Shown here piece by piece: positions 1-27,772 of a stretch of DNA of 64,000 nt. Positions within the stretch are counted from its first letter, which is position 1; every line of letters starts with the position of its first letter. The translations under genes and the position numbers were made by a program. The notes below the pieces were generated by a model, which searched no databases, had not been told where the DNA came from, and worked only from the letters and a program-made list of their open reading frames with translations. This DNA is from Moorella glycerini (GTDB lineage: Bacteria; Bacillota; DSM-521; Neomoorellales; Neomoorellaceae): positions 124,001 through 188,000 of the forward strand of contig NZ_CP046244.1 in assembly GCF_009735625.1 (NCBI RefSeq), given 5' to 3'.

Positions 1-680
1 TTGATTTCCTCCACGAAATCAAATATGGTAACCCGGCGGCCGATATCTTTTAAGTAATGGGCATCAGAAGCGACCGTCAGGGGCCAACCGGCCAGGGTCG
101 GAAATTGCTTTAAGGCCTCATCGGGATATAGCAGGCCCAGCTCCATGGCCGCAAACGGCAGTCCTTCTGGTATCAACCCGAGGTGGCCCAACAGGCCGTA
201 TGATGGCCGGTCCACATGGGCCGGTATACAAACGCCGCCACGCCCGCTTACCTCCCTGACCACCTCTTCCAACCCCATGTCGACACTTGTCAGGAGAAGC
301 CTTTTTTCCCGTCCTATCTCCCTCCCGGCAGCATCCAAAAGCAACTGGCAACCGAAATACTCTTCCCGGTTTTCTTCGGCAGGTAGACGTTGGTATACTA
401 TTGATTGCCATTCCAGGGCCTCTGCCGCACTATTGAAGAGGCAAACCAGATGCACGTCTTCCCTTGTCTGAACTTCCAAACCCGCGAGAACTATAAGCCC
501 CGTCCCCCGGGCGGCTTCCTGGACGGCCGCTATATTCCCGGCGCTGTTGTGATCGGTAACGGCTATAAGCTGCAGTCCCGCCATAATGGCGGCGGCCACA
601 ATCCGGGGCGGCGTCATCTCTTCCCCGGCGCAGGGCGACAGGGCGGTATGGATGTGGAGATCGGCACGGTAGAAGGTCAT
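1..680 (-). CDS. PHP-domain metal-dependent phosphoesterase, C-terminus cut by window edge
   Basis: Translating from the ATG at 680 gives a PHP-family protein of which about 226 residues are visible; the C-terminus runs off the window at base 1. The metal-binding signatures are present in order: DLHIHT near the N-terminus, AVTDHN, GLEVQT, PAHVD and SDAHY. The family hydrolyses phosphate esters, and the substrate here is unknown. The start overlaps the stop of the upstream DRTGG gene (685), so the two are probably translationally coupled; an in-frame ATG at 695 is an alternative start. It is the last visible gene of a module with a hydrogenase-like protein and a HATPase, which suggests a signalling role (inference). 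Confidence 0.85.
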   Translation of the reverse strand, partial: MTFYRADLHIHTALSPCAGEEMTPPRIVAAAIMAGLQLIAVTDHNSAGNIAAVQEAARGTGLIVLAGLEVQTREDVHLVCLFNSAAEALEWQSIVYQRLPAEENREEYFGCQLLLDAAGREIGREKRLLLTSVDMGLEEVVREVSGRGGVCIPAHVDRPSYGLLGHLGLIPEGLPFAAMELGLLYPDEALKQFPTLAGWPLTVASDAHYLKDIGRRVTIFDFVEEI

Positions 681-684
681 ATGC

Positions 685-1026
685 TCACTTCTCATTAAGG
701 AGCTGATAAAGCCGGCCGGCCATTTCAAAAGTAGAATGGGGGGTTTGCAGAAGGGGAAGGCCTTCTGCCTCGGCCTTGCGGCAAACCTCCGGCGGAATGC
801 CCCTGCCGCCGGTGAATACCACCCCCGCTGCTCCGGTCAGAAGGGCAACGGCCACTACGTTCATATGGGTCTGCAGGGTTAGCCAGAGACATCCGGGCGT
901 ACCGTTGGCCATAAAATCGCTGATCAGGTCGGAACAGTAACCGCCGATAACTTCCCTGTCCAGGGCCTTTTCCCCTGCTAATACTTGTAAATGCAGGCGT
1001 TCAACGATTTCCCGAAGGCGCATCTT
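685..1026 (-). CDS. DRTGG-domain protein
   Basis: This is a 113-residue protein made almost entirely of a DRTGG domain. It begins MRLREIVERL, contains LDREVIGGYCSDL and LTLQTHMNVVAVALL, and ends in a short helix. DRTGG domains occur next to CBS domains and in phosphotransacetylase-like proteins, and their ligand is uncertain. The ATG at 1026 is chosen because an AGGGGAG ribosome-binding site lies six bases upstream; the frame stays open further upstream but there it is only a shadow of the hydrogenase-like gene. It overlaps the 3' end of that gene by 26 bases. A second DRTGG paralogue lies at 2798-3172, so the module carries two. Confidence 0.82.
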   Translation of the reverse strand, partial: KMRLREIVERLHLQVLAGEKALDREVIGGYCSDLISDFMANGTPGCLWLTLQTHMNVVAVALLTGAAGVVFTGGRGIPPEVCRKAEAEGLPLLQTPHSTFEMAGRLYQLLNEK

Positions 1027-2320
1027 CATCTCCCCTTTCCGGCCGGGCCATGGACGGCGGCAATTTCCGCGCCAGCTCCACCACCTCTTCCGCCAGGACC
1101 CGTACCCGCTCGCGCAGTACGAAAACGCAGTCCGTATCCTGGGCCTCACCCTGGACGATATCTTCGGCAAGGGCGCGACAGCTGGGCGAGCCGCAGGAAC
1201 CGCAGTCCAGTCCCGGAAGCATGGCCTGTGTGGCTTCCAGGCGCCGCATCTTTTCAATAGCGGTGGCCAAATCGTCGTCCAATTGCAGGGCTGGCCGGGG
1301 ATAAACCGGCTCCGCCCTCAGGTCTTTTTCCGTCACCGGGAGATCCATAGATCTTGACGGTAGGTCGCGGACCAGCTGCCGCAACTCCAGCTTTGCCAGG
1401 TAGGGATTTTGTACCATCAGGGCTCCACCGACACATCCACCCGGACAGGCCTGGGCCTCGATGTATTCAATATCCTGGAAGTCGCCCGCTTCTATACGGG
1501 TCAAGACTTCAATAACGTGATGAATGCCATCGACCTCCAGGAGGCGCCGACCGCCAATGCTGGCGTTTTCGCCGCCGCTGTGCCCCCAGCCGTAACCGGT
1601 TGCCCCGGCGCGGGAGGGATATGGAAGGGCGGAAGAAAGGCCCTTGAGTATGTCGCCATAAACGGTCGCCAGGGGAATAACTCCATCGGGACCTACCCTT
1701 TTTCCCTGGGGCTGGCGCGCCGCCGTAATCTTAGCCGGACAGGGGGAAATAAAGAAGGTGCCGACGGCTTCTAACGGTAGGCCGGTGGCTTTCATCCCCT
1801 CCAGCCGGGCCAAGCGGGCTGCCAAATCAACGGGGGTGACCAGGGGCAAAATCTGCTCCACCAGGGAAGGAAAACGGACTTGTATTAGGCCTACTACTGC
1901 CGGGCAGGCCGGGGAAATAAGCGGCCTTTTCCCGCCGTAATTATCCAGGTAGCGTCTGGTTGCCCTGGCCACCATTTCCGCCGCCAGGGCCACTTCGTAA
2001 ATGGCATCAAATCCTAAAGCCTTTAGGGCTCCCAAAATATGCTCAAGTTTAGCCTGACCGGCAAACTGGGAAACCACGGCCGGGGCGGGCAGGGCAATGC
2101 GATACCTGTAAGCGGCCAGGGCCGTCAAGTCATCGCCTACGGCGATCTTGGCATGGTTGGGACAAATGCGGATACACTCGCCGCAGTCGATGCAGCGTTC
2201 CTGAATAATCCGCGCCTTGCCTTCCCGCACCCTTATGGCTTCTGTCGGGCAGTGCTTTATGCAGTTGGTACAACCCTTACATTTATCCTCTTCCAGGCGA
2301 ACGGAATGGAAATAACCCAC
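1001..2320 (-). CDS. [FeFe]-hydrogenase-like protein with H-cluster domain, probably sensory
   Basis: This 439-residue protein has three parts. The N-terminal ferredoxin domain carries two 4Fe-4S motifs (CKGCTNC...C and CIDCGEC...C, about residues 14-56). The [FeFe]-hydrogenase catalytic-like domain has four cluster cysteines at about 139, 194, 292 and 296. The C-terminal CGSCGSPSC...C domain (about 373-398) should bind another 4Fe-4S cluster. The H-cluster pocket is altered: the first loop reads SPACPAV, with Ala where catalytic enzymes have the proton-transfer Cys; the second reads SPCPAK, lacking the usual Met and Glu; the third reads EAQACPGGC. Such changes are known from putative sensory group C/D enzymes. 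Start is GTG at 2320. Neighbours are DRTGG, HATPase and PHP proteins rather than hydrogenase electron-transfer subunits, which supports H2 or redox sensing (inference). Confidence 0.85.
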   Translation of the reverse strand: MGYFHSVRLEEDKCKGCTNCIKHCPTEAIRVREGKARIIQERCIDCGECIRICPNHAKIAVGDDLTALAAYRYRIALPAPAVVSQFAGQAKLEHILGALKALGFDAIYEVALAAEMVARATRRYLDNYGGKRPLISPACPAVVGLIQVRFPSLVEQILPLVTPVDLAARLARLEGMKATGLPLEAVGTFFISPCPAKITAARQPQGKRVGPDGVIPLATVYGDILKGLSSALPYPSRAGATGYGWGHSGGENASIGGRRLLEVDGIHHVIEVLTRIEAGDFQDIEYIEAQACPGGCVGGALMVQNPYLAKLELRQLVRDLPSRSMDLPVTEKDLRAEPVYPRPALQLDDDLATAIEKMRRLEATQAMLPGLDCGSCGSPSCRALAEDIVQGEAQDTDCVFVLRERVRVLAEEVVELARKLPPSMARPERGDEDAPSGNR

Positions 2321-2333
2321 CGCGCCACCGCCT

Positions 2334-2759
2334 TCAGCGATTATAAATAATTATGTTAACAGTTGTCCCCTGCCCCGCTCCCGACTTTATCTCCAGTTCG
2401 TCGGCACAGCGGCGTATATTGGGAAGGCCCATACCGGCACCGAAGCCCATCTCCTGGATCTCCCGCGGTGCGGTAGAATAGCCCTCCTGCATGGCCAGTT
2501 CGATGTCAGGTATTCCCGGACCGTCATCAACGGCGGTAATGGTAATTGCCCCAGGAGTAATATGGGCCTTTAATTCACCACCGTAGGAGTGGATGATGAT
2601 ATTCATTTCAGCTTCATAGGCTGCAATGGCGGCCCTGCGTATAATCTCCGGAGGAAAACCGACCTGCTGCAGTACCTGCCGGATATGTGCCGCCCCGTTG
2701 CCACCGGCGAGAAAGTCACGCGCCCGCACGGGAAATGACAGCTTGAGGGACGGCATCTT
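2334..2759 (-). CDS. HATPase-domain protein, anti-sigma/RsbW-like kinase fold
   Basis: This 141-residue single-domain GHKL ATPase shows an N-box (YEAEMNIIIHS), a G1 box (VDDGPGIPD) and a G2 glycine-rich box (GFGAGMGLPNI). It has no HisKA domain, so it resembles SpoIIAB/RsbW/RsbT serine kinases or an orphan histidine-kinase catalytic domain rather than a full sensor kinase. The ATG at 2759 has GGAGG five bases upstream; a TTG at 2768 with its own GGAGGA is an alternative start. It lies 13 bases before the hydrogenase-like gene, which suggests that it passes on the signal of that protein (inference). Confidence 0.8.
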   Translation of the reverse strand, partial: KMPSLKLSFPVRARDFLAGGNGAAHIRQVLQQVGFPPEIIRRAAIAAYEAEMNIIIHSYGGELKAHITPGAITITAVDDGPGIPDIELAMQEGYSTAPREIQEMGFGAGMGLPNIRRCADELEIKSGAGQGTTVNIIIYNR

Positions 2760-2797
2760 ATCCTCCAAGGAAATCTCCTCCGGTCGTTCCAGGCATT

Positions 2798-3172
2798 CTA
2801 TCGGTCATCCCCGGAACATCCCTTTAGGCCGGCCTGGAAGAGGCGGCCACAGCTGTCATACATTAAAAACCTGGTCCCCAGAAGGGGCAAACCTACTTCC
2901 CTGGCAGCCTGAATAAGGCTTTTATCCGGCCTTTTGCCACGAACAAAAACGATGGCCGCGGCGTCGATCATGGTAGCCGTATGAATAACATGGGGATTGG
3001 TCAGTCCCGTCAACAACAGTATTCGGCAGCTGGCAAAGGCCAGAACGTCACTCATTAGATCCGAGGCAAAACCGGCCTCCACTTCTAACTCCAGCTTATC
3101 CATACCGGTAAAGACCTCGGCATTCAGGATGGCCTGTACTTCTTTAAGTTTCAGCGGCCCGACCTCCCCCAA
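2798..3172 (-). CDS. DRTGG-domain protein, first gene of the sensory hydrogenase module
   Basis: This protein of up to 124 residues is a DRTGG-domain paralogue of the one at 685-1026 (LKLKEVQAILNAEV..., GFASDLMSDVLAF, GLTNPHVIHTATMID). The track-style start is a TTG at 3172 with no ribosome-binding site. A strong GGGGGAGG lies inside that reading frame, and a CTG codon at 3154 sits about seven bases after it, so translation may really begin at the rare CTG. It is the first gene of the minus-strand module (DRTGG, HATPase, hydrogenase-like, DRTGG, PHP). The ligand is unknown. Confidence 0.75.
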   Translation of the reverse strand: MGEVGPLKLKEVQAILNAEVFTGMDKLELEVEAGFASDLMSDVLAFASCRILLLTGLTNPHVIHTATMIDAAAIVFVRGKRPDKSLIQAAREVGLPLLGTRFLMYDSCGRLFQAGLKGCSGDDR

Positions 3173-3334
3173 TGGTGAATTACTTCACAATAGCTGGCAA
3201 AAGAAACAGGCCTCGCCAGACCTTTGGTAATCGCTTACTTTTCACTTTCACTTTATCTTATGCTTGTGATAGTTCTTATGTGGATTTTATTCGCCATGAA
3301 TTTTGATTTTCCTGCTAGGTCTTATAAAATTCTT

Positions 3335-3403: not shown

Positions 3404-4162
3404 CTATTTGTCCCCCAAGCGCTCTGTAATAGCCTTAAACAAATCCATGGGTACGGGGAAGACAAGGATGTTGCTTTTATCGGAGGCGATCTCCGTTAGG
3501 GTCTGCAAATATCGCAGCTGTAAAGAAGCCGGCTGGGTAGAAATGATCCGTGCCGCCTCGGCCAGCTTTTCAGCGGCCTGGAACTCCCCGTCGGCGTGGA
3601 TAATCTTAGCCCTACGTTCCCTTTCCGCCTCAGCCTGGGCGGCCATAGCCCGCTGCATACTCTGGGGTAACTCTACATCGCGTATTTCTACAAGGCTCAC
3701 CTTAACTCCCCATGGCTCCGTGCCCTCATCAATGATCTGCTGCAGGCGCTGGTTTATCTGCTCCCGGTGGGCCAGGAGCTCGTCCAGGTCTGACTGTCCC
3801 AGAACGCTCCGCAGGGTGGTCTGGGCCAGCTGGGAAGTAGCGCGGACATGGTCCAGGACTTTGATAACGGCGTTAGCCGGCTCAATAACCCGGAAATACA
3901 CCACTGCATTTACCTTTACGGTAACGTTATCCTTGGTTATAGCCTCCTGGGCCGGTACGTCCATGGTCACCGTCCGTAAATCCACCTTCTGCATGCGTTC
4001 AATGAGGGGTATTAAAAAGAAGAGTCCCGGACCCCGCACGCCGACATAGCGGCCCAGGCGAAAAATTACTCCCCTTTCGTATTCTTGAACGATGCGGACA
4101 GAAGAAGAAACTATGCTGGCTACAATAACAAAAAGGGCAATGAGGGAAATAAAATTTTCCAC
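3404..4162 (-). CDS. Slipin/stomatin family SPFH (band 7) membrane protein
   Basis: This 252-residue protein has one N-terminal membrane segment ([19 protein letters not shown]), then an SPFH/band 7 domain ([29 protein letters not shown]) and a coiled-coil [14 protein letters not shown] region. Slipins form membrane microdomain scaffolds and are commonly encoded with NfeD proteases, as here: nfeD ends 18 bases upstream at 4181. Start is GTG at 4162 with a GGAAGGAG site. A second slipin is encoded at 51431-52357 without nfeD. Function beyond NfeD partnership is not deducible. Confidence 0.9.
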
Positions 4163-4180: not shown

Positions 4181-7100
4181 TTAGCCTTCATCGGCTTTTT
4201 TTACTTTAACCTTCAAACCTTCTACCTCTAATATAACCACCCTTTGGCCTGCTGTAACGGGTTCCAAGCTTTCTGCGTGCCACCTCTCGCCTTCTGCCAA
4301 AATTATTCCTTCCGGACGGAGATCGGTTAGGGCTTTACCAATAGTCCCCACAAGGCTTTCCCGACCTGTTACCACAGGTCGCCCTCGTGCTTTTATTACG
4401 GCTCCCAGGAGGAAGGCAATAAAGGCCGCCATGCATACGGCCGTCACTGCTATCAGGCCGATATTTAGCCGCAGGTCCGGCGACCCGCCGCCAAAAAGCA
4501 TTAGCGACCCCAGAATAAAAGAAACCATACCGCCTCCCGCCAGCAGTCCATGGCTTACGACAAAAGCTTCCGCAGCCAGCAATCCTAACCCAAGGACGAT
4601 CAGCAATACACCGCCGAACTGAGCGTCAAGGCTGCCCAGGGCGTAAAGACCAAGCAACAAACCTATCCCACCGACAATTCCCGGAAAAACAGCCCCGGGA
4701 TGATATAATTCCATGATTAAACCAAGGCCGCCGGCTGTAAGGAATCGAGTAGGAGGGGGCGGCTAGCCCCCGTCCTCTCACACCACCGGACATGCGGGTC
4801 CGCATCCGGCGGTTCACCAAGCTTGACGAAGATAAGAATAGCGCTCGGTTAAGCTCATCAGGCCCTGGGATTGCCAGTAGGCATTGCCCAGGGCTCTATT
4901 CATTGGCCCATGGGCCATCCGCCACAGCCCTTTGCGGGCATTGGCGAATTCATGCACTACCCATTCCGGCAATCCCAATGCGCGTAGTTCGCGGTACCTG
5001 GTCCGTACTCGCTTCCACTGCTTCCAGAGACACATGCGCAGCCTCCGCCGCGTCCAGCTTTCTAAGTTCTTAAAGATGCTGGGCGTGTCGGCCAGGGCGA
5101 AGTACCCTATCCAGCCGCCCAGGTAGGCGTTCAGGCGCTCTATGCGCTCGGCCATCTTTAAGGGTTTATTCCGGGCGGTTATCTCCCGGATTTTCGTTTT
5201 CACCCGGTCGATGGTCTGCGGCGCCAGGCGGATAAGGATTACTCCTGCCTTGTGTTTGTACATGCTGAACCCCAGAAATTTCAGCTTCCACGGCCGGTCT
5301 ACCGCGCTCTTCTGCTCGTTGATCTTGAGCTTCAACCGCTCCTGCAGGAAGTTGCGGATACTGGCCATGACCCTTTCTCCTGCCCGTTTGCTTTTGACGT
5401 AGATGTTGCAGTCATCGGCGTAACGGACGAACTTGTGGCCCCTCTTTTCCAGTTCTTTGTCCAGGTCGTCCAGGAGTATGTTGGCCAATAACGGGCTTAA
5501 GGGTCCGCCCTGGGGCGTTCCTTCTGCCGTCTCCATGACCACTCCGTTTACCATGACGCCTGCCTGGAGATAGCGGCGGATAAGGGTAAGTACCCTCTTA
5601 TCTGCCACTTTCCGGGCCACCCGGGCCATGAGGATGTCGTGGTTTACCCGGTCGAAGTATTTCTCGATGTCCAGGTCCACGGCCCATTCGTATCCTTCTT
5701 CTACGTATTGCCGCGCCTTCTTTACCGCATCATGGGCTTTCCTTCCGGGACGGAACCCGTAGCTGGCCTCTGAGAACTGCGGTTCGAAGATGGGCGTCAA
5801 TACTTGCAGGAGGGCCTGCTGGATTAGGCGGTCCATTACGGTGGGTATCCCTAACATCCGTTTGCCTCCCCCGGGTTTCGGGATTTCGACCCGGCGCACG
5901 GGCTTCGGTCTGTAGGTTCCCGCGAGCAGTTCTTCCCGGATGCGCGGCCACTCGGCGCGTATTTGGTCCCGCAACCGTTCGGTCGGGATGCCGTCCACAC
6001 CGGGCGCGCCTCCGTTCCGCTCTACCCGTTTCAGCGCGGCCAGCATGTTCTCCCTGGCCACCACCTGCTCCATCAGGCCGCTACCTTGGCCTCCGCGAGG
6101 TGACGTCCCGCTTTGTGCCGGAGAAGAACTCGGCCCTCCCGCGCTCCCCCGTGGCTTCACCACTTCTTCCCGCGGGCAGGCCCCTTGCGGGGTTTTCTGC
6201 TGTCTCTGTCCTTCTCGCGAACGCACCGGTTTCACCTCTGACTTGATGTTCGGGCCTTCCCCTGGAGTTCATGACCCCCAGGGTACTATGCCCTCTGCTG
6301 ACTCCTGCCGGTTCAGCCGTACCTTCCGATACGGTTTACCAGCTCTCCCTGGCTTATCCGGCAGGCCTCCCCGGGTAAGAGCGTTAACCTTCGCCCCGTG
6401 CCCGCCCCATATACTCTACCGTCCCTTGGCAGCCTGGGATTTCGCTGTGTTCCGCCAGCTTATCCGAACGGTCTAGCCTCGTATGGGGTTCTTGTTCATC
6501 GGGCCGTGGCTTTGCCTCCGGCTTCCTTCGGATCCCACCTCGCGATGGACACCCTTGCCTTTGGCTAGCAGACTGGTGCTGCCTCGCCTGCAGTGGACTT
6601 TCACCACTAAGTTAACGCCCATGCCGGGCGCACGGATATATGCGATGTTGGGTTCGCTGATTTTAAAAAGCAGGCGTTGAACCGGGCTCATAACCAGGGA
6701 GTTAAGCGGGGCATCATCTAGCTTTAGCTCCACCTCCTTCCCGTCTATTAACGTAACCGTCCGCCCGTGAAGCTGTTTAAATAGCTCTTCCCTGCTGGCA
6801 GCCACCAGGTCAATCAGGTTAGCCTTTAATGCCTCGCCGTCACTAAAAGACTTGCTCTCCAGTACTGCCATTTCCGCCTGGGAAGGATCGCGACCCCGCA
6901 TCTGGGCAATGCTCCGCACCCAGGCCGCCGCATCCTGGGTTATCTTTTCCTTCTGCACATCGGTCATTTCTCCCTCCCCACCAACGGAAACCGGATGGGC
7001 GGCCCCTATCCTGCTGCCCGGAGCCATGGCCGCCACATGAGCCGAAAGGGTAATGAAGGTCCCCGCCGAACCGGCCCACGCCCCGGCCGGTGAAACATAG

Positions 7101-7393
7101 ACGATAACCGGCACCCGGGAATTCATAATGCATTCTACTATCTCCTGGGTAGTCCCGTACAGGCCTCCGGGAGTGTTTATTTCCAGGAGAACACAACCAG
7201 CTCCAGCCTCTTCGGCCGCCCGGATCCCTTTCCTTACATAATCCGCCACTACCGGCACGATAGCCCCTTCCACCCGCAGCAAGTATACCTCCTGGCCGGT
7301 TGCAGAAAATCCAGCCGGAATCCCGGCAAACAGCACCAAGGAAAATGTCAGGAAAAAAATAATTGTCAATCTCATTTTAACTAACTTGGTCAT
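4181..7393 (-). CDS. nfeD: NfeD membrane serine protease, gene split by a group II intron (exons 7393-6634 and 4743-4181)
   Basis: The gene is in two exons. Exon 1 (760 bases) encodes a signal peptide and a ClpP-like serine protease domain ([34 protein letters not shown]) and ends within NIAYI. Exon 2 (563 bases) continues with the remaining membrane segments and the soluble C-terminal OB-fold domain. Removing 4744-6633 joins ATATATCC to TCCTTACAGCC and reads [19 protein letters not shown] in frame without a stop; total 1323 bases, 440 residues, normal for long NfeD. Unspliced RNA would give a truncated protease reading into the intron. ATG at 7393 follows AGGGGA. The slipin gene follows, as is usual for NfeD. 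Whether splicing is efficient in the cell cannot be judged from sequence. Confidence 0.88.
4782..4813 (-). other. Group II intron domain V
   Basis: The minus strand reads ACCGCCGGATGCGG, a short loop, then CGCATGTCCGGTGGT. The nine outer bases pair (with one G-U), a two-base bulge follows on the 3' side, and an inner TGCG/CGCA stem is capped by a tetraloop. This is the catalytic domain V form. Aligned by eye to the usual GAGCCGGAUGCG, the triad reads CGC, a mark of group IIC introns. Confidence 0.75.
4814..6235 (-). CDS. ltrA: Group II intron reverse transcriptase/maturase
   Basis: This 473-residue protein is encoded inside the intron. It contains an RT domain with the polymerase active site YADD at residues 272-275 ([11 protein letters not shown]), the TPQGGPLSP motif at about 240-247 and [13 protein letters not shown] at about 158-170. 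A maturase (domain X) region follows ([16 protein letters not shown]...) and a basic tail. No HNH endonuclease domain is present. Such proteins promote splicing of their host intron and copy it into DNA. All visible motifs are intact, so the intron could still be mobile. Start is GTG at 6235; a second GTG three codons later is also possible. The stop codon abuts domain V. Confidence 0.92.
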   Translation of the reverse strand: MKPVRSREGQRQQKTPQGACPREEVVKPRGSAGGPSSSPAQSGTSPRGGQGSGLMEQVVARENMLAALKRVERNGGAPGVDGIPTERLRDQIRAEWPRIREELLAGTYRPKPVRRVEIPKPGGGKRMLGIPTVMDRLIQQALLQVLTPIFEPQFSEASYGFRPGRKAHDAVKKARQYVEEGYEWAVDLDIEKYFDRVNHDILMARVARKVADKRVLTLIRRYLQAGVMVNGVVMETAEGTPQGGPLSPLLANILLDDLDKELEKRGHKFVRYADDCNIYVKSKRAGERVMASIRNFLQERLKLKINEQKSAVDRPWKLKFLGFSMYKHKAGVILIRLAPQTIDRVKTKIREITARNKPLKMAERIERLNAYLGGWIGYFALADTPSIFKNLESWTRRRLRMCLWKQWKRVRTRYRELRALGLPEWVVHEFANARKGLWRMAHGPMNRALGNAYWQSQGLMSLTERYSYLRQAW

Positions 7394-11719: not shown

Positions 11720-11990
11720 TGAGGTATCCTCTGGGACAATCACGGTAGAACCGATGGCGGGGCAGTTCAGTTCCTCCTGCACTTCCTAAAGTGCTTGGTA
11801 AGACTGCTCCCCGGGCCTGGCGGCAACCGCTTACGCGCGGGTCGCACGCCCTTTAGAGGTTCTCCCTTCAGCAAGGAGCTGCGCACCAGTCTCTTAAGGG
11901 TCGGTGCTCATCAGCAAGGTTGCTGTTACGTCAGGTTCCTAGGGATACCCCAATTTTGGTTTGCTAAATCCCCGGGAAAGGAGGTGTTTT
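11720..11990 (+). ncRNA. Candidate bridge-RNA region of the IS110-family element
   Basis: This GC-rich non-coding stretch lies directly upstream of the transposase start. In characterised IS110 elements (IS621) the equivalent 5' region encodes the bridge RNA that pairs with target and donor DNA. Several self-complementary segments are visible, for example CCTAAAGTGCTTGG. The call rests on position and family knowledge only; no bridge-RNA loop could be assigned. Confidence 0.35.
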
Positions 11991-11993
11991 GCT

Positions 11994-13158
11994 ATGGGAA
12001 AAACCCTTTTTGTCGGTATCGATATAGGGTCCGACACCAATGTGGTGCGCATCCTTGATGATACCGGCGAAGATGTCTGCGGTTTTAGCGTTTCTAACGA
12101 CCTCCCCGGGGCTGAAAGGCTTGTGGAAAGGATTGTTGCTGAAGCTGAGTTACTTGATGCTGATAAGATTGAGATTGGCATGGAGGCCACTAACCTCTAT
12201 TGGTGGCACCTTTCCCAGGCCCTGCATGAGGCTCCTGAACTCTCGGCATTTGCTGCGGAAATAGCGGTGATTAACCCCAAGGTGATTGACGGCTTTAAGC
12301 TTATCTACCCGGATATGGCTAAGACCGGCGCCTTGGATGCCCGGGTTATTGCTGATTGCTTGCGGTTTGGACGGGTACGTCCAACACCCCCTCCTGATAT
12401 GACCTATGCTCCTTTGCAACGGCTTACCCGGTTTCGCTATCACCTGGTCAGTAACCTCACTCGTGAGAAGAATAGGGCCCTCAATCTGATATTCCTTAAG
12501 TTTTCTACCTACCAGAAGGAGTGTCCCTTCTCCAATTTGTTCGGGCAGGCCTCCCGGGCTGTCGTTGGCAACCTCACCCCTGATGAAATTGCTAATATGC
12601 CGGTGGAAGAACTGGTCGATATGATGCTTGAGCACGGTAATAACCGCTTGAAGGATGTCCCGGAGATGGCCAGAGTTATTAAACAGGCGGCCCGCAATTC
12701 CTACCGTTTAAACCCTAAAATGCGGGATGCTGTTGATGTTACCCTGGCCATGTCCCTGGAAACCATCCGCTTCTTTGAAACCCAGCAGAAGAAAATCGAC
12801 CAGATCATTGCTAAAGAACTAAAAGCCATTCCCCAAACGTTAGATACTGTTCCTGGTATCGGGCCGGTTTACTCTGCCGGCATAATAGCCGAAATTGGTG
12901 ACATCTCCAGGTTTAAGAACCACAATGCCCTTGCTAAATTCGCGGGCCTGACCTGGCGGCAGCACTAGCAAGTTCACTGCCGAGGATATCCCCTTAACCA
13001 TGTCCGGTAATTATTACTTACGGTACTACCTCATTGAGGCGGCTAATTCCGTCCGGGTGCGGGAGCCGGAATATGCCGCGTTCTACCGCAAGCTTGTGCG
13101 CATGGTCTTCACGCTGCTGAGTGAGGGCCAAATCTACCGCCACAGGAGGTTGGGTTAA
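11994..13158 (+). pseudogene. IS110-family transposase, frameshifted and internally deleted
   Basis: The ATG at 11994 has AAAGGAGGTG upstream. The N-terminal RuvC-like DEDD domain is intact to the eye (FVGIDIGSDTN, IGMEATNLYWWHL, GALDARVIADCLRFG). The C-terminal Transposase_20 domain starts (VPGIGPVYSAGIIAEIG, FKNHNALAKFAGLTWRQH) but meets TAG at 12966. Reading then continues in another frame from 12967 (SKFTAEDIPLTMSGN..., stop 13156-13158), so the frame is shifted near the expected catalytic serine. A second lesion follows: PEYAAFYRK is joined directly to LVRMVFTLL, about 20 or so residues shorter than intact relatives as I remember them. The gene is almost certainly inactive. Confidence 0.85.
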
Positions 13159-16455: not shown

Positions 16456-16707
16456 TTAAAAATATAAATCCCTTTCGCCCGCAGCAATGCGCTCCAGGCG
16501 GCGTTCGGTTTCGGCCCGGATAGCCGCATTTGGTATCTGAGCCAGGTGCTCCCTGATGGCCGCTTCCCCTGCCTTCCGGGTGGCCGGCCCGGCGTAGTCC
16601 AACAGGTATTCTTTAAAGGTCAGGATGGCGTTGGGCTGGCACACATGCTGGATCTTGCTGGTTTTGGCCAGGGCCATGAAGCGGTCGCCGATTTCAAACT
16701 GGGGCAC
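16456..16707 (-). pseudogene. Remnant copy of the hydG 3' end, internally deleted
   Basis: This 83-codon open frame copies the last part of hydG (25175-26578) in the same orientation. Over about 245 aligned bases I count roughly ten differences. It joins PQFEIGD directly to RFMALAKT, lacking 32 codons (96 bases, equivalent to 25410-25505 in hydG). The lost stretch is bounded in hydG by two copies of GGTCGCCG and contains two of the three cysteines of the CX2CX22C auxiliary cluster. It cannot make a functional HydG. Together with intact hydG it brackets the kdp block as direct repeats. Confidence 0.9.
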
Positions 16708-25174: not shown

Positions 25175-26578
25175 CTAGAAATATAAATCCCTTTCGCCGG
25201 CGGCGATGCGCTCCAGGCGGCGTTCGGTTTCGGCCCGGATAGCCGCATTTGGTATCTGAGCCAGGTGCTCCCTGATGGCCGCTTCCCCTGCTTCCCGGGT
25301 GGCCGGCCCGGCGTAGTCCAGCAGGTATTCTTTAAAGGTCAGGATGGCGTTGGGCTGGCATACATGCTGGATCTCGCCGGTTTTGGCCAGGGCCATGAAG
25401 CGGTCGCCGGTGCGGCCGCGGCGGTAGCAGGCCGTGCAGTAGCTGGGGAGATAGCCCCGCCGGCAGAGGTCACCTATCACCTCATCCGGGTGGCGGTGGT
25501 CGCCGATTTCAAACTGGGGCACATCGTCGCCGTTCTCAGTATAGTGGCGGCCGTAGCCGCCGACGCCGGTGCAGGAACCGGCGCTGAGCTGGGAAATGCC
25601 TAAAGCCAGCAGTTCCGTCCGCAGCTCCGGCGTCTCCCGGGTGGAAATGATCATGCCGGTATAGGGCACGGCCAGGCGAATAATGGCTACTATCTTCTTA
25701 AAGTCCTCATCGTTAACCAGATAAGGGAAATTATCCAGGCTAATACCGTAAGCCGGCCGCAGGCGGGGAACGGAGATGGTATGCGGCCCGACGCCGAAGG
25801 TTTGCTCCAGGTGCCGGGCATGGTAGAGCAGGCCCATAACCTCAAATTTATAATCGTAGAGGCCGAAGAGGACCCCCAGGCCCACGTCGTCAATGCCCCC
25901 CTCCATGGCGCGGTCCATGGCCGTAGTGTGCCAGTCGTAGTCCGCTTTAGGGCCGCCTGGGTGCATGTAGGCGTAAGACGGCCGGTGGTAGGTTTCCTGG
26001 AAAAGGATGTAAGTGCCGATGCCGGCGGCCTTCAACTGGCGATAGGCGTCCACGGTGGTCGCTGCGATATTGATATTGACCCGGCGGATGTTGCCGCTGG
26101 CCTCGGTGATGTGGTAGACGCGGTCGATGACCTCCAGGACGTAATCCAGGGGGCAGTGCACCGGGTCTTCTCCCGCCTCCAGGGCCAGGCGCTTGTGCCC
26201 CAGGGACTCCAGGATGCGTACCTCCCGCTCCAGCTCCGCCGGTTCCAGGCGGCGGCGTTCAAATTTGTTGTCCCGCCGGTAGCCGCAGTAGCGGCAGTTG
26301 TTAACGCAGTAGTCGCTGAAGTAGAGGGGGGCAAAAAGAACCATGCGCCGGCCGTAGATCTTTTCCTTTATTTCCCGGGCGGCGGCAAACATCTGCCGGC
26401 GCACACCTGCATCATCACTCTGGAGCAGAACGGCCACCTCGTAGGGCTCCAGGCCTTGGGCTTCCCGGGCCTTGGCGACAATGCGGGCAGCCTCATCTAT
26501 CGTTGCCCGTTTGGCTTCTTCCAGGTAACCTTCTATCTCTTCATGATCGATAAAGCCGGCATGATAACCGCTTTGCAT
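25175..26578 (-). CDS. hydG: HydG, radical SAM [FeFe]-hydrogenase maturase (tyrosine lyase)
   Basis: This 467-residue protein cleaves tyrosine to supply CO and cyanide ligands for the H-cluster. The radical SAM CX3CX2C motif is at residues 91-98 (DYCVNNCRYCGY). The C-terminal auxiliary cluster motif CX2CX22C is present (CTAC to QHVC). The ATG at 26578 has GGAGGCAATTTCC upstream; an ATG-equivalent five codons earlier lacks a site. hydE is 139 bases upstream. The 3' end is duplicated as a remnant at 16456-16707. Confidence 0.96.
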   Translation of the reverse strand: MQSGYHAGFIDHEEIEGYLEEAKRATIDEAARIVAKAREAQGLEPYEVAVLLQSDDAGVRRQMFAAAREIKEKIYGRRMVLFAPLYFSDYCVNNCRYCGYRRDNKFERRRLEPAELEREVRILESLGHKRLALEAGEDPVHCPLDYVLEVIDRVYHITEASGNIRRVNINIAATTVDAYRQLKAAGIGTYILFQETYHRPSYAYMHPGGPKADYDWHTTAMDRAMEGGIDDVGLGVLFGLYDYKFEVMGLLYHARHLEQTFGVGPHTISVPRLRPAYGISLDNFPYLVNDEDFKKIVAIIRLAVPYTGMIISTRETPELRTELLALGISQLSAGSCTGVGGYGRHYTENGDDVPQFEIGDHRHPDEVIGDLCRRGYLPSYCTACYRRGRTGDRFMALAKTGEIQHVCQPNAILTFKEYLLDYAGPATREAGEAAIREHLAQIPNAAIRAETERRLERIAAGERDLYF

Positions 26579-26716
26579 GGAAATTGCCTCCATCCAGTTT
26601 AATAATACTTAAGCCTATATCCGGGTTCTCCCCGCTTTCTCTCCGCTTTCACTCCGTTTTATGAACTTTTGTTAAATAAAGTGATACTTAAAATTAAGAC
26701 TCCCGGCTGCCGCCGG

Positions 26717-27772
26717 TCACCGGGCCGGCAAGGGCTTCAAGGTGTGTCCCGGTCCCCGCCCCAGCCGCCTCCCTAAGGCGCGCACCATGCCTTCCAGGCA
26801 GTGGCGGCAGTCTTCCGGGCCTTCGTTGACGCAAATCTTATTGGGGTAGATCTGGTAATCAGCCCGGTAGCGGGTCGGGGTCAGGTTAGGCATGATGACG
26901 TTCGCCCCCCGCTGCAGGGCCAGCTGGCGCCCGTTGGGAGCCAGGGTGCCCACCGCGGTGGTAGCCGGCAGGTGGGCATAGGGGATAACTAGCCTGGCAG
27001 TGGCAATCACCCGGTAGGTCAGATCTAGGCTGCCGGCCGGTTCTCCCGCCAGGGGCGTTGCCGGGTGGGGGATAAAAGGACCCAGGCCTGCCATTTCCAC
27101 GTCCAGCCGCCGCAGGAGGATTAAATCATCGGCCAGGTCGGCCAGGGTCTGGCCCGGCAGGCCGATGATGTTCCCCGAGCCTACCTGGTATCCCAGTTCC
27201 CGCAGCCACAGGAGGCACTGGCGGCGTTCCTGCCAGCTCATACCGGGGTGGAGGCAGGCGTAGAGAGCGGCATTGGCCGTCTCATGCTTCAAAAGGTAGC
27301 GGTCGGCCCCGGCCTCCCGCCACAGGGCGTATTCATCCCGCCTCCTCTCCCCGACGCATAAGGTTACGGCTACCCCCAGCTTTTTTATTTCCCTGATTAT
27401 CCCGGCCAGGACCGGGCCTGTATACCAGGGGTCTTCCCCCGACTGGAGGACGATGGTCCCGTAACCCAGTTCCGCCCCGCGCCTGGCGACAGCGACAATA
27501 TCTTCCGGCATTAAGCGGTATCGCTGTAACTTCGCGTTATCAGCGCGGAGGCCGCAGTAACAACAGTGGCGGCGACAGTAATTTGAAAACTCGATGACGC
27601 CGCGCAGGTGGACCTCGTCCCCGGCCACCCGGGCCCGGACGCCGTCCGCCAGCCGGTAGAGGGCCTCTTCTTCGGCGCCGGGGGCCGCGGCCAGCAGGTT
27701 TATAATGTCTTCCCTGGTGAGTTCTTCCCCAGCAGCCGCTCTTTCTAAACTGGCAGTAAATTCCGTTCGCAC
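26717..27772 (-). CDS. hydE: HydE, radical SAM [FeFe]-hydrogenase maturase
   Basis: This 351-residue radical SAM protein has the CX3CX2C motif in FSNYCRRHCCYCGLR and motifs typical of HydE (VLQSGEDPWY, LLKHETANAALYACLHPGM, GSGNIIGLPGQTL). HydE acts with HydG and HydF to build the diiron subcluster. GTG at 27772 with a GGAGAGG site. It is preceded by a TM1266-type gene 58 bases upstream. hydF is not in this window. Confidence 0.95.
   Translation of the reverse strand: MRTEFTASLERAAAGEELTREDIINLLAAAPGAEEEALYRLADGVRARVAGDEVHLRGVIEFSNYCRRHCCYCGLRADNAKLQRYRLMPEDIVAVARRGAELGYGTIVLQSGEDPWYTGPVLAGIIREIKKLGVAVTLCVGERRRDEYALWREAGADRYLLKHETANAALYACLHPGMSWQERRQCLLWLRELGYQVGSGNIIGLPGQTLADLADDLILLRRLDVEMAGLGPFIPHPATPLAGEPAGSLDLTYRVIATARLVIPYAHLPATTAVGTLAPNGRQLALQRGANVIMPNLTPTRYRADYQIYPNKICVNEGPEDCRHCLEGMVRALGRRLGRGPGHTLKPLPAR

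Follow-up and report, generated by a model that had tools for sequence, protein, structure and literature searches.

HydS, an [FeFe]-hydrogenase-like protein of Moorella glycerini, is probably the sensory input subunit of a conserved signaling cassette, D1-H1-HydS-D2-PHP-H2, in which it is accompanied by two DRTGG-domain proteins (D1, D2), two ATPases (H1, H2) and a PHP phosphoesterase. This reading draws on gene content, natural fusions, co-occurrence, active-site conservation, protein folds, the HydS clade and an operator-like site. A redox or H2 sensor feeding a phospho-signaling chain had already been proposed in a first-pass annotation of this DNA; this is still the best reading and the sensory-type class is supported, but the idea is not new: a sensory role for group D proteins whose genes adjoin those of a kinase-like ATPase and a bifurcating hydrogenase was put forward between 2012 and 2020 (PMC3561251, PMC8163306). 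Newly reported here are the H1/HydS co-occurrence, the fusions, a cassette lacking HydS, a family lacking the maturases and the Moorella palindrome.

Gene cluster and class of HydS

The window, that is the whole 64 kb stretch of DNA analyzed, holds the following features:

1-680, minus strand: PHP, PHP-domain phosphoesterase, first part (Pfam PF02811, 37.4 bits)
685-1023, minus strand: D2, stand-alone DRTGG-domain protein, 112 aa (PF07085, 38 bits, over the cut-off)
1001-2320, minus strand: HydS, group D (M2e) putative sensory [FeFe]-hydrogenase, 439 aa (PF02906, 95.3 bits; PF04060, 51.7 bits)
2334-2768, minus strand: H1, SpoIIAB/RsbW-like GHKL ATPase, candidate serine protein kinase, 144 aa (PF13581, 46.3 bits)
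2798-3154, minus strand: D1, divergent DRTGG-domain protein, 118 aa (profile and predicted fold)
3173-3190, no strand assigned: Rex-box-like palindrome, TTGTGAAGTAATTCACCA on the minus strand, 18 bp upstream of the D1 start
25175-26593, minus strand: HydG, H-cluster maturase, 472 aa (TIGR03955, 635 bits, over the cut-off), about 22 kb away
26717-27772, minus strand: probable HydE, H-cluster maturase, radical SAM, 351 aa (ORF adjoining hydG)

The five cassette genes first annotated are all present and lie on the minus strand, closely packed: the D2 gene overlaps the end of the HydS gene, and the PHP gene, 251 codons at full length, runs 76 bp past the window edge. By homology, D1 probably starts at a CTG at 3154, shortly after GGGGGAGG, with a TTG at 3172 as an alternative upstream start. 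The name HydE is a probable one, given from gene order and sequence character; the HydG model yields a weak cross-match at G000:C1:151242-151754. Just outside the window, PHP is followed on the same strand by NuoE, the second ATPase H2, HydC, HydB and a catalytic group A HydA. The earlier statement that the module is not encoded with electron-transfer subunits was thus mistaken, because the window edge had cut the gene cluster.

HydS comprises an N-terminal part with two [4Fe-4S] clusters, an H-domain and a C-terminal Cx2Cx4Cx16C [4Fe-4S] motif; a Pfam search gave no match to a PAS domain. Its active site had been described accurately: the four H-cluster cysteines are kept (Cys139, 194, 292 and 296), alanine (Ala138, in SPACPAV) occupies the position of the proton-transfer Cys299 of CpI, and the conserved Met and Glu of the second loop (FISPCPAKITA) are gone, with Ser192 in place of Met353 and Ala in place of Glu361. 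The four H-cluster cysteines are found in 97/97 relatives, each of the 16 Fe-S and H-cluster cysteines in 96-97/97 and the diiron-site lysine (Lys197 in Moorella) in 89/97, while the proton-path cysteine is replaced in all 97. In a tree of 23 group D rows and 48 others, which left out any named TamHydS sequence, HydS falls with group D in a separate clade (SH-aLRT 100), to which groups A, B and C-like do not belong, and therefore lies outside group A; a position inside group A is what the first-pass annotation had held incompatible with a sensor. Both a group A and a group C (M2f) identity were rejected on motifs and tree, HydS lacking TSC[CS]PGW and MPCTAKK in the one case and a fused PAS in the other. 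The sequence and gene-order traits of group D are found: no proton-transfer Cys, a hydroxyl residue for Met353, no PAS, and a gene that precedes a trimeric bifurcating hydrogenase of group A. Motifs and tree position thus assign HydS to the TamHydS class, the [FeFe]-hydrogenase-like proteins of group D (M2e), and it is best read as a sensor and not as a bulk catalyst.

The partner proteins

H1 had been annotated as an orphan GHKL ATPase. It carries an ExxxN N-box and glycine-rich ATP-binding boxes, and the notion of an orphan histidine kinase domain gave way to a SpoIIAB-like one, since among solved structures it comes closest to the anti-sigma F serine kinase SpoIIAB (1TID, E=2.7e-7). H1 aligns to SpoIIAB; its catalytic-type Glu, N-box Asn and G2 glycines are invariant (94/94), and the ATP-binding sites are intact in both H1 and H2. 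In NCBIfam, H1 matches anti-sigma F and RsbW most closely, with 52.5 bits against the SpoIIAB equivalog TIGR01925, below its cut-off of 135. In the inspected cassettes, where part of the neighbors were scanned with STAS and sigma models, we noticed neither a STAS protein nor a PP2C phosphatase nor a sigma factor, and the SpoIIAB analogy therefore comes without its usual partners.

As for the two DRTGG partners claimed, D2 exceeds the Pfam cut-off, while D1 falls below it (18.6 versus 25.2 bits for PF07085) and is assigned by its predicted fold. All 11 of 11 D1 homologs match PF07085 at E<=0.01, the D1 and D2 profiles match each other at E=3e-26, and the AlphaFold model of D1 (pLDDT 90.6) finds AF1212 (2IOJ) as its best fold (TM 0.82, E=5e-6); the D2 model (pLDDT 96.7) finds 3L2B and 2IOJ, both models being of single chains. 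The serine of a DLxS motif is invariant in D1 (84/84), as are its Asp and Ser in D2 (93/93). Conservation makes these serines candidate phospho-sites, and the Asp-Ser pair could also be structural or ligand-binding. PHP has complete metal-ligand motifs, the positions checked being kept in 83-85/85 homologs, and all its NCBIfam scores for the named families RNase RNM, HisJ, TrlF and CehA lie below the cut-offs. That the roles of DRTGG and PHP partners are undescribed agrees with the open-access literature, in which we found no paper linking DRTGG, PHP and a hydrogenase.

Conservation of the cassette

H1 occurs in 154/156 HydS-bearing genomes versus 20/242 genomes without HydS, and the order D1-H1-HydS-D2-PHP-(E)-H2-C-B-A is kept over about 70 loci from many families. 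Natural fusions, verified by a Pfam domain check, appear to join these genes, the second ATPase included, into one assembly: D1-H1 in six genomes, H1-HydS in G388 and G233 (H1 joined to the HydS N-terminus), HydS-D2 in G111 and G033 (D2 on the HydS C-terminus) and PHP-H2 in five genomes of one family, with the latter three fusions each restricted to one family. From these we infer that a complex may also form in Moorella. The cassette core also exists without HydS, either with a CBS-H1 fusion (L222, L223, L226) or as D1-H1-D2-H2 (L219, L228), often beside Rex. Elsewhere the cassette lies upstream of Rnf (L104/L108), lacks HydABC nearby (L096, L119), or takes a chemotaxis arrangement, CheW-H1-HydS-hydrogenase-MCP (L111/L080). 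A Candidatus Sumerlaeota locus (L039) was set aside as evidence of wider spread: its gene order and the length of its contig are the same as those of L079 (genome G024), and it looks like a mislabeled MAG.

The palindrome TTGTGAAGTAATTCACCA has one mismatch to TTGTGAANNNNTTCACAA and is the sole site in 64 kb at <=2 mismatches (0.09 expected). It is kept at -17/-18 upstream of D1 in the Moorella loci examined, and the genome has two Rex genes. It is a candidate Rex-type operator, and its sequence would suit a CRP/FNR-type site too. A looser Rex pattern gave 16 matches at <=2 mismatches against 15.9 expected, and therefore only the strict consensus and the conservation count. No convincing Rex-type site was found in most of the other lineages examined.

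HydG is present in most tested HydS genomes, Moorella included. The five genomes of family f29, from three genera, encode no PF02906 protein other than HydS, score under the cut-offs for HydF and HydG, and have Gln in place of the diiron-site lysine; all 16 cysteines are kept, and the stand-alone D1-H1-HydS-D2-PHP-H2 set is intact in both loci that were read completely (L096, L119). Judging from these features, the f29 HydS is probably an Fe-S redox sensor. The f29 genomes also carry [NiFe]-hydrogenases. Genome G052 has no group A enzyme, no HydF/HydG, and Arg for the lysine. The lysine is retained in many HydG-negative genomes, so the correlation between HydG absence and lysine loss is carried by two lineages; HydG absence was dropped as general proof of a HydS without H-cluster, and that reading is kept for f29 and G052 only. 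HydG-negative genomes with the lysine may be explained by gaps in the assembly, divergent maturases or salvage.

Proposed mechanism and alternatives

We infer a direction of signaling, a serine phosphorylation, a role for PHP and an output as follows. H2 acting through the H-cluster, or reduced ferredoxin, would set the redox state of the N-terminal [4Fe-4S] clusters of HydS. H1 would sit against this N-terminal side, as the fusions in two genomes suggest, and the redox state would switch its kinase activity. The DRTGG proteins may act as adaptors, D2 on the C-terminal Fe-S domain of HydS and D1 on H1, and, being homologs, could pair and so bridge H1 with HydS. H1 would then phosphorylate the DLxS serine of D1/D2, the most likely acceptor, while PHP, coupled to H2, would oppose or read the signal. 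As output, the expression or activity of the downstream bifurcating HydABC (sometimes Rnf) would be adjusted, under a Rex-type operator. That the Moorella cassette has no DNA-binding protein counts against this scheme. More tentatively, D1-H1-D2-PHP-H2 may constitute a phospho-switch of a kind not described before, whose SpoIIAB-type kinase acts on a DRTGG serine rather than on STAS. Its inputs would be exchangeable: H2 or ferredoxin through group D HydS, adenylates through CBS pairs and, in some lineages, plain redox state through a HydS that lacks the H-cluster and serves as an Fe-S sensor.

It is possible, if rather doubtful, that the system senses redox and energy state as such, through ferredoxin potential and adenylate, with H2 as one electron source, HydS interchangeable and the H-cluster dispensable. 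The maturase-less f29 and G052, with their Gln and Arg substitutions, and f29 with its cysteines and cassette kept, would fit such a sensor, as would the CBS-H1 cassettes without HydS and the association with Rex and Rnf. However, the lysine is retained by most HydS proteins and HydG by most tested genomes, the tie between their losses comes from two lineages, and the [NiFe]-hydrogenases of f29 indicate that H2 matters there as well. It seems improbable that H1 is instead an anti-sigma factor that binds an alternative sigma directly, with HydS redox state controlling its release: its closest structures and NCBIfam matches do point that way, but H1 stays below the equivalog cut-off, sigma and STAS genes were not noticed in the inspected cassettes, and a dedicated substrate is suggested by the strong conservation of kinase-type residues and by the pairing with DRTGG proteins.

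A catalytic role for HydS is conceivable, given the measurable but low H2 turnover of TamHydS (PMC8163306). HydS would then be a low-activity, high-affinity hydrogenase, with H1, H2, D1, D2 and PHP as accessories (in assembly or ATP-driven electron activation) to the bifurcating enzyme that is co-located in most loci; the intact ATP-binding sites of both ATPases would suit such a function. We consider this quite unlikely, as the proton-path cysteine is replaced in all 97 relatives, and cassettes occur without HydABC nearby (L096, L119), without HydS (L222, L223) or with a chemotaxis-linked H1-HydS (L111).

Returning to HydS as a sensory subunit, the sensor label for group D proteins dates back to 2012 or earlier, with no partner known, and a 2026 study of TamHydS regards finding interaction partners as critical for the signaling mechanism (PMC13104023). 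The fusions name such candidates, H1 at the N-terminal side of HydS, D2 at its C-terminus and D1 on H1, and therefore define protein sets to co-express and assay, making the old signaling guess directly testable. Through cassettes without HydS or maturases, H2 sensing can be told apart from redox sensing in general, and they illustrate how a hydrogenase can be reused as a sensory subunit.

Comparison with known systems

The nearest relative in kind is TamHydS from Thermoanaerobacter mathranii, a putative sensory [FeFe]-hydrogenase that belongs to group D (M2e) as well (PMC8163306, PMC10407848, PMC13104023). In TamHydS, electrons pass mainly by way of the N-terminal clusters, and H2 does not reduce the C-terminal cluster (PMC13104023). 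Both proteins have two N-terminal [4Fe-4S] clusters, a four-Cys H-domain and the C-terminal Cx2Cx4Cx16C motif, lack Cys299 and PAS, carry Ser for Met353, and are encoded ahead of a trimeric bifurcating hydrogenase of group A with an adjoining HK-like ATPase; they differ at the Met497 position, which is Leu in TamHydS and Gln in Moorella. The flanking non-ATPase genes encode DRTGG proteins in nearly all HydS-homologous loci of the present analysis. TmHydS, of the sensory group C (M2f), is likewise a putative sensor with an altered proton path and a C-terminal Fe-S domain, but carries a PAS, whereas HydS has none and its clade lies apart from the C-like rows.

H1 shares GHKL fold, ExxxN catalytic motif and size with SpoIIAB/RsbW; unlike them, it is tied to DRTGG proteins and HydS and sometimes bears an N-terminal CBS pair. 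The DRTGG domains of AF1212, CBS-pyrophosphatase and the HPr kinase N-terminus have the fold of D1 and D2 (TM 0.64-0.82) and, as in the present cassettes, known DRTGG domains are used alongside CBS pairs. D1 and D2 differ in that they stand alone, occur as a pair and share an invariant DLxS motif; the signature Asp-Arg is missing in both, and TGG is present in D2 only. In regulatory [NiFe]-hydrogenases (HoxBC) with HoxJ, a hydrogenase-like protein controls a kinase in response to H2. There, however, the metal site is unrelated and the kinase is a PAS-histidine kinase, whereas the candidate kinase here is SpoIIAB-like and without PAS.

Gene order and conservation of the HydS cassette

On contig 1 of the 3.56 Mb genome (window, bases 124001-188000), five genes that overlap or almost abut one another are read in the following transcription order:

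2798-3154, minus: D1, a divergent DRTGG-domain protein (first)
2334-2768, minus: H1, a SpoIIAB-like GHKL ATPase (second)
1001-2320, minus: HydS, an [FeFe]-hydrogenase-like protein (third)
685-1023, minus: D2, a DRTGG-domain protein (fourth)
680 down past the window edge, minus: PHP, a PHP-domain phosphoesterase (fifth)

The first-pass annotation described this module as one not encoded with electron-transfer subunits. That contrast is an edge effect, since the gene set runs on along the same strand just outside the window with NuoE, a second GHKL ATPase (H2), HydC, HydB (1011 aa, a NuoF joined to a GltD-like portion) and HydA of group A. The order D1-H1-HydS-D2-PHP-(NuoE)-H2-HydC-HydB-HydA is found again at about 70 loci in many families, and two loci (L096, L119) hold the six cassette genes by themselves, without hydABC. 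Among 82 large loci, H1 is present in 80, HydS, D1, D2 and H2 in 75 each and PHP in 67, counts that are depressed by locus edges and include ten loci picked for H1. Across 398 genomes of the phylum, H1 occurs in 154/156 HydS-bearing versus 20/242 HydS-less genomes (Fisher p about 1e-84, the genomes not being independent). One locus labelled Candidatus Sumerlaeota (L039; SLNR01000060.1, 72539 bp) matches a contig of genome G024 of the phylum (L079) in size and gene order and is probably a misbinned or mislabelled MAG.

Elsewhere in the window, a minus-strand group II intron with Rfam matches (4744-6549; reverse transcriptase ORF 4814-6235) apparently splits an NfeD/ClpP-like gene into pieces at about 6550-7393 and 4181-4714, adjoining a slipin-like gene (3404-4162). 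An ORF at 11961-12968 was assigned to an IS110-type transposase from its sequence character.

HydS is a group D protein

HydS has two N-terminal [4Fe-4S] motifs, an H-domain and a C-terminal Cx2Cx4Cx16C, the full group D (M2e) set; a domain search found no PAS domain in it. Among 97 distinct relatives, the four H-cluster and four C-terminal cysteines are kept in all, and the eight N-terminal cysteines are complete save for one missing in a single relative. The proton-transfer position is never Cys in the 97: it is Ala in 64, Ser in 26, Thr in 5, Gly in 1 and His in 1. At the Met353 position they carry Ser, Thr or Ala. In an H-domain tree whose group labels are our own, from motifs and domains, 23 group D rows lie on one side of a branch (SH-aLRT 100), with groups A, B and C-like apart. 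The first-pass reading of HydS as sensory is consistent with this separation from group A. HydS at this locus is a group D putative sensor, of a class already regarded as such (PMC3561251, PMC3608648, PMC8163306).

Which clusters HydS carries may differ between families. The five genomes of family f29 have no PF02906 protein besides HydS, and neither HydF nor HydG scores over the cut-off there. Their HydS has Gln in place of the lysine (residue 197 in HydS here; CpI Lys358) that is known in the family to hold the diiron site. Judged from sequence, f29 HydS most likely carries only [4Fe-4S] clusters. Against this reading, the lysine is retained in many other HydG-negative genomes, and [NiFe]-hydrogenases are present in f29 genomes.

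About one third of the HydS-bearing genomes tested have no HydG match over the cut-off, several of them having a group A hydrogenase, and HydF is likewise absent in five (G186, G131, G275, G062, G240). The diiron-site lysine is Gln in Eubacterium oxidoreducens (L045) and Glu in L179, from G368, where HydG is present and a TAG stop lies inside the HydS frame. In the window, a minus-strand fragment (16459-16692) within a 91-aa open frame aligns to the HydG model over its final 78 positions only and is possibly a HydG remnant. The window also has an intact hydG (25175-26593), and the genome a second HydG-like gene (G000:C1:1851192-1852484). A protein of 748 aa (L005:3647-5893, minus; G000:C1:108647-110893), encoded about 15 kb away from HydS, combines Fe-S motifs, a hydrogenase H-domain, sigma-54 AAA+ and a Fis HTH. 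Its loop 3 has CxxC in place of CxxxC, as do related rows from other families, and it is possibly a second hydrogenase-derived redox regulator without a normal diiron site.

Fusions and variants of the cassette

Natural fusions join D1 to H1 (six genomes), H1 to the N-terminal side of HydS (two) and HydS to D2 (two), and because they form a chain, they link D1, H1, HydS and D2 as one assembly. PHP-H2 fusions (five genomes) instead pair the second ATPase with PHP and not with the hydrogenase; Pfam domains were checked in one H1-HydS and one PHP-H2 fusion. H1 and HydS are the tightest pair, since L080 and L111 keep them near a hydrogenase-domain protein without D1, D2 or PHP. At L111, CheW and an MCP signalling domain also lie beside H1-HydS, and L113 has CheW-D1-H1-HydS followed by a PAS-GGDEF-type protein. 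The hydrogenase-like domain at L080 and L111 (L111:6857-8767, domains checked in L111) is itself fused to the MCP signalling domain, near CheW, H1 and HydS, and hydrogen or redox chemotaxis is a possible role.

The core also occurs without HydS: three loci (L222, L223, L226) have an N-terminal CBS pair on H1 and no HydS between H1 and D2, and L219/L228 are reduced to D1-H1-D2-H2. CBS-H1 coexists with HydS at three others (L081, L108, L115). Rex adjoins D1-H1 at L220/L227 and lies inside the searched span at 17 loci, and an rnf operon, assigned by subunit order and sequence, follows the cassette in L104 and L108. Here, a Rex-box-like palindrome, TTGTGAAGTAATTCACCA, sits 18 bp before the D1 start. 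It is the only one of its kind in the window, where 0.09 would be expected, and its position is preserved at the Moorella loci examined. The genome has two Rex genes, and the published Rex consensus is TTGTGAANNNNTTCACAA, with a Rex site reported at the Caldicellulosiruptor hyd operon (PMC6391272); the palindrome may instead be a CRP/FNR-type site.

A possible phosphorylation step

No description of the cassette was found in the open literature searched, nor of the fusions, the versions lacking HydS or the maturase-less family. The variants and fusions convert the partner question of group D sensors into direct tests. H2 retains its ATP-site Asn and glycines in 82/82 and PHP its metal ligands in 83-85 of 85. 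D1 is homologous to D2 (hhalign E 3e-26), and predicted models of both match solved DRTGG domains; the Ser of a DLxS motif, at a predicted helix start, is invariant in each (D1 84/84, D2 93/93). The closest PDB match of H1 is SpoIIAB (E 2.7e-7), and 94/94 sequences keep the SpoIIAB-type Glu and Asn as well as the G2 glycines. By analogy, we propose that H1 may phosphorylate the DLxS Ser of D1 and D2, as SpoIIAB does with SpoIIAA.
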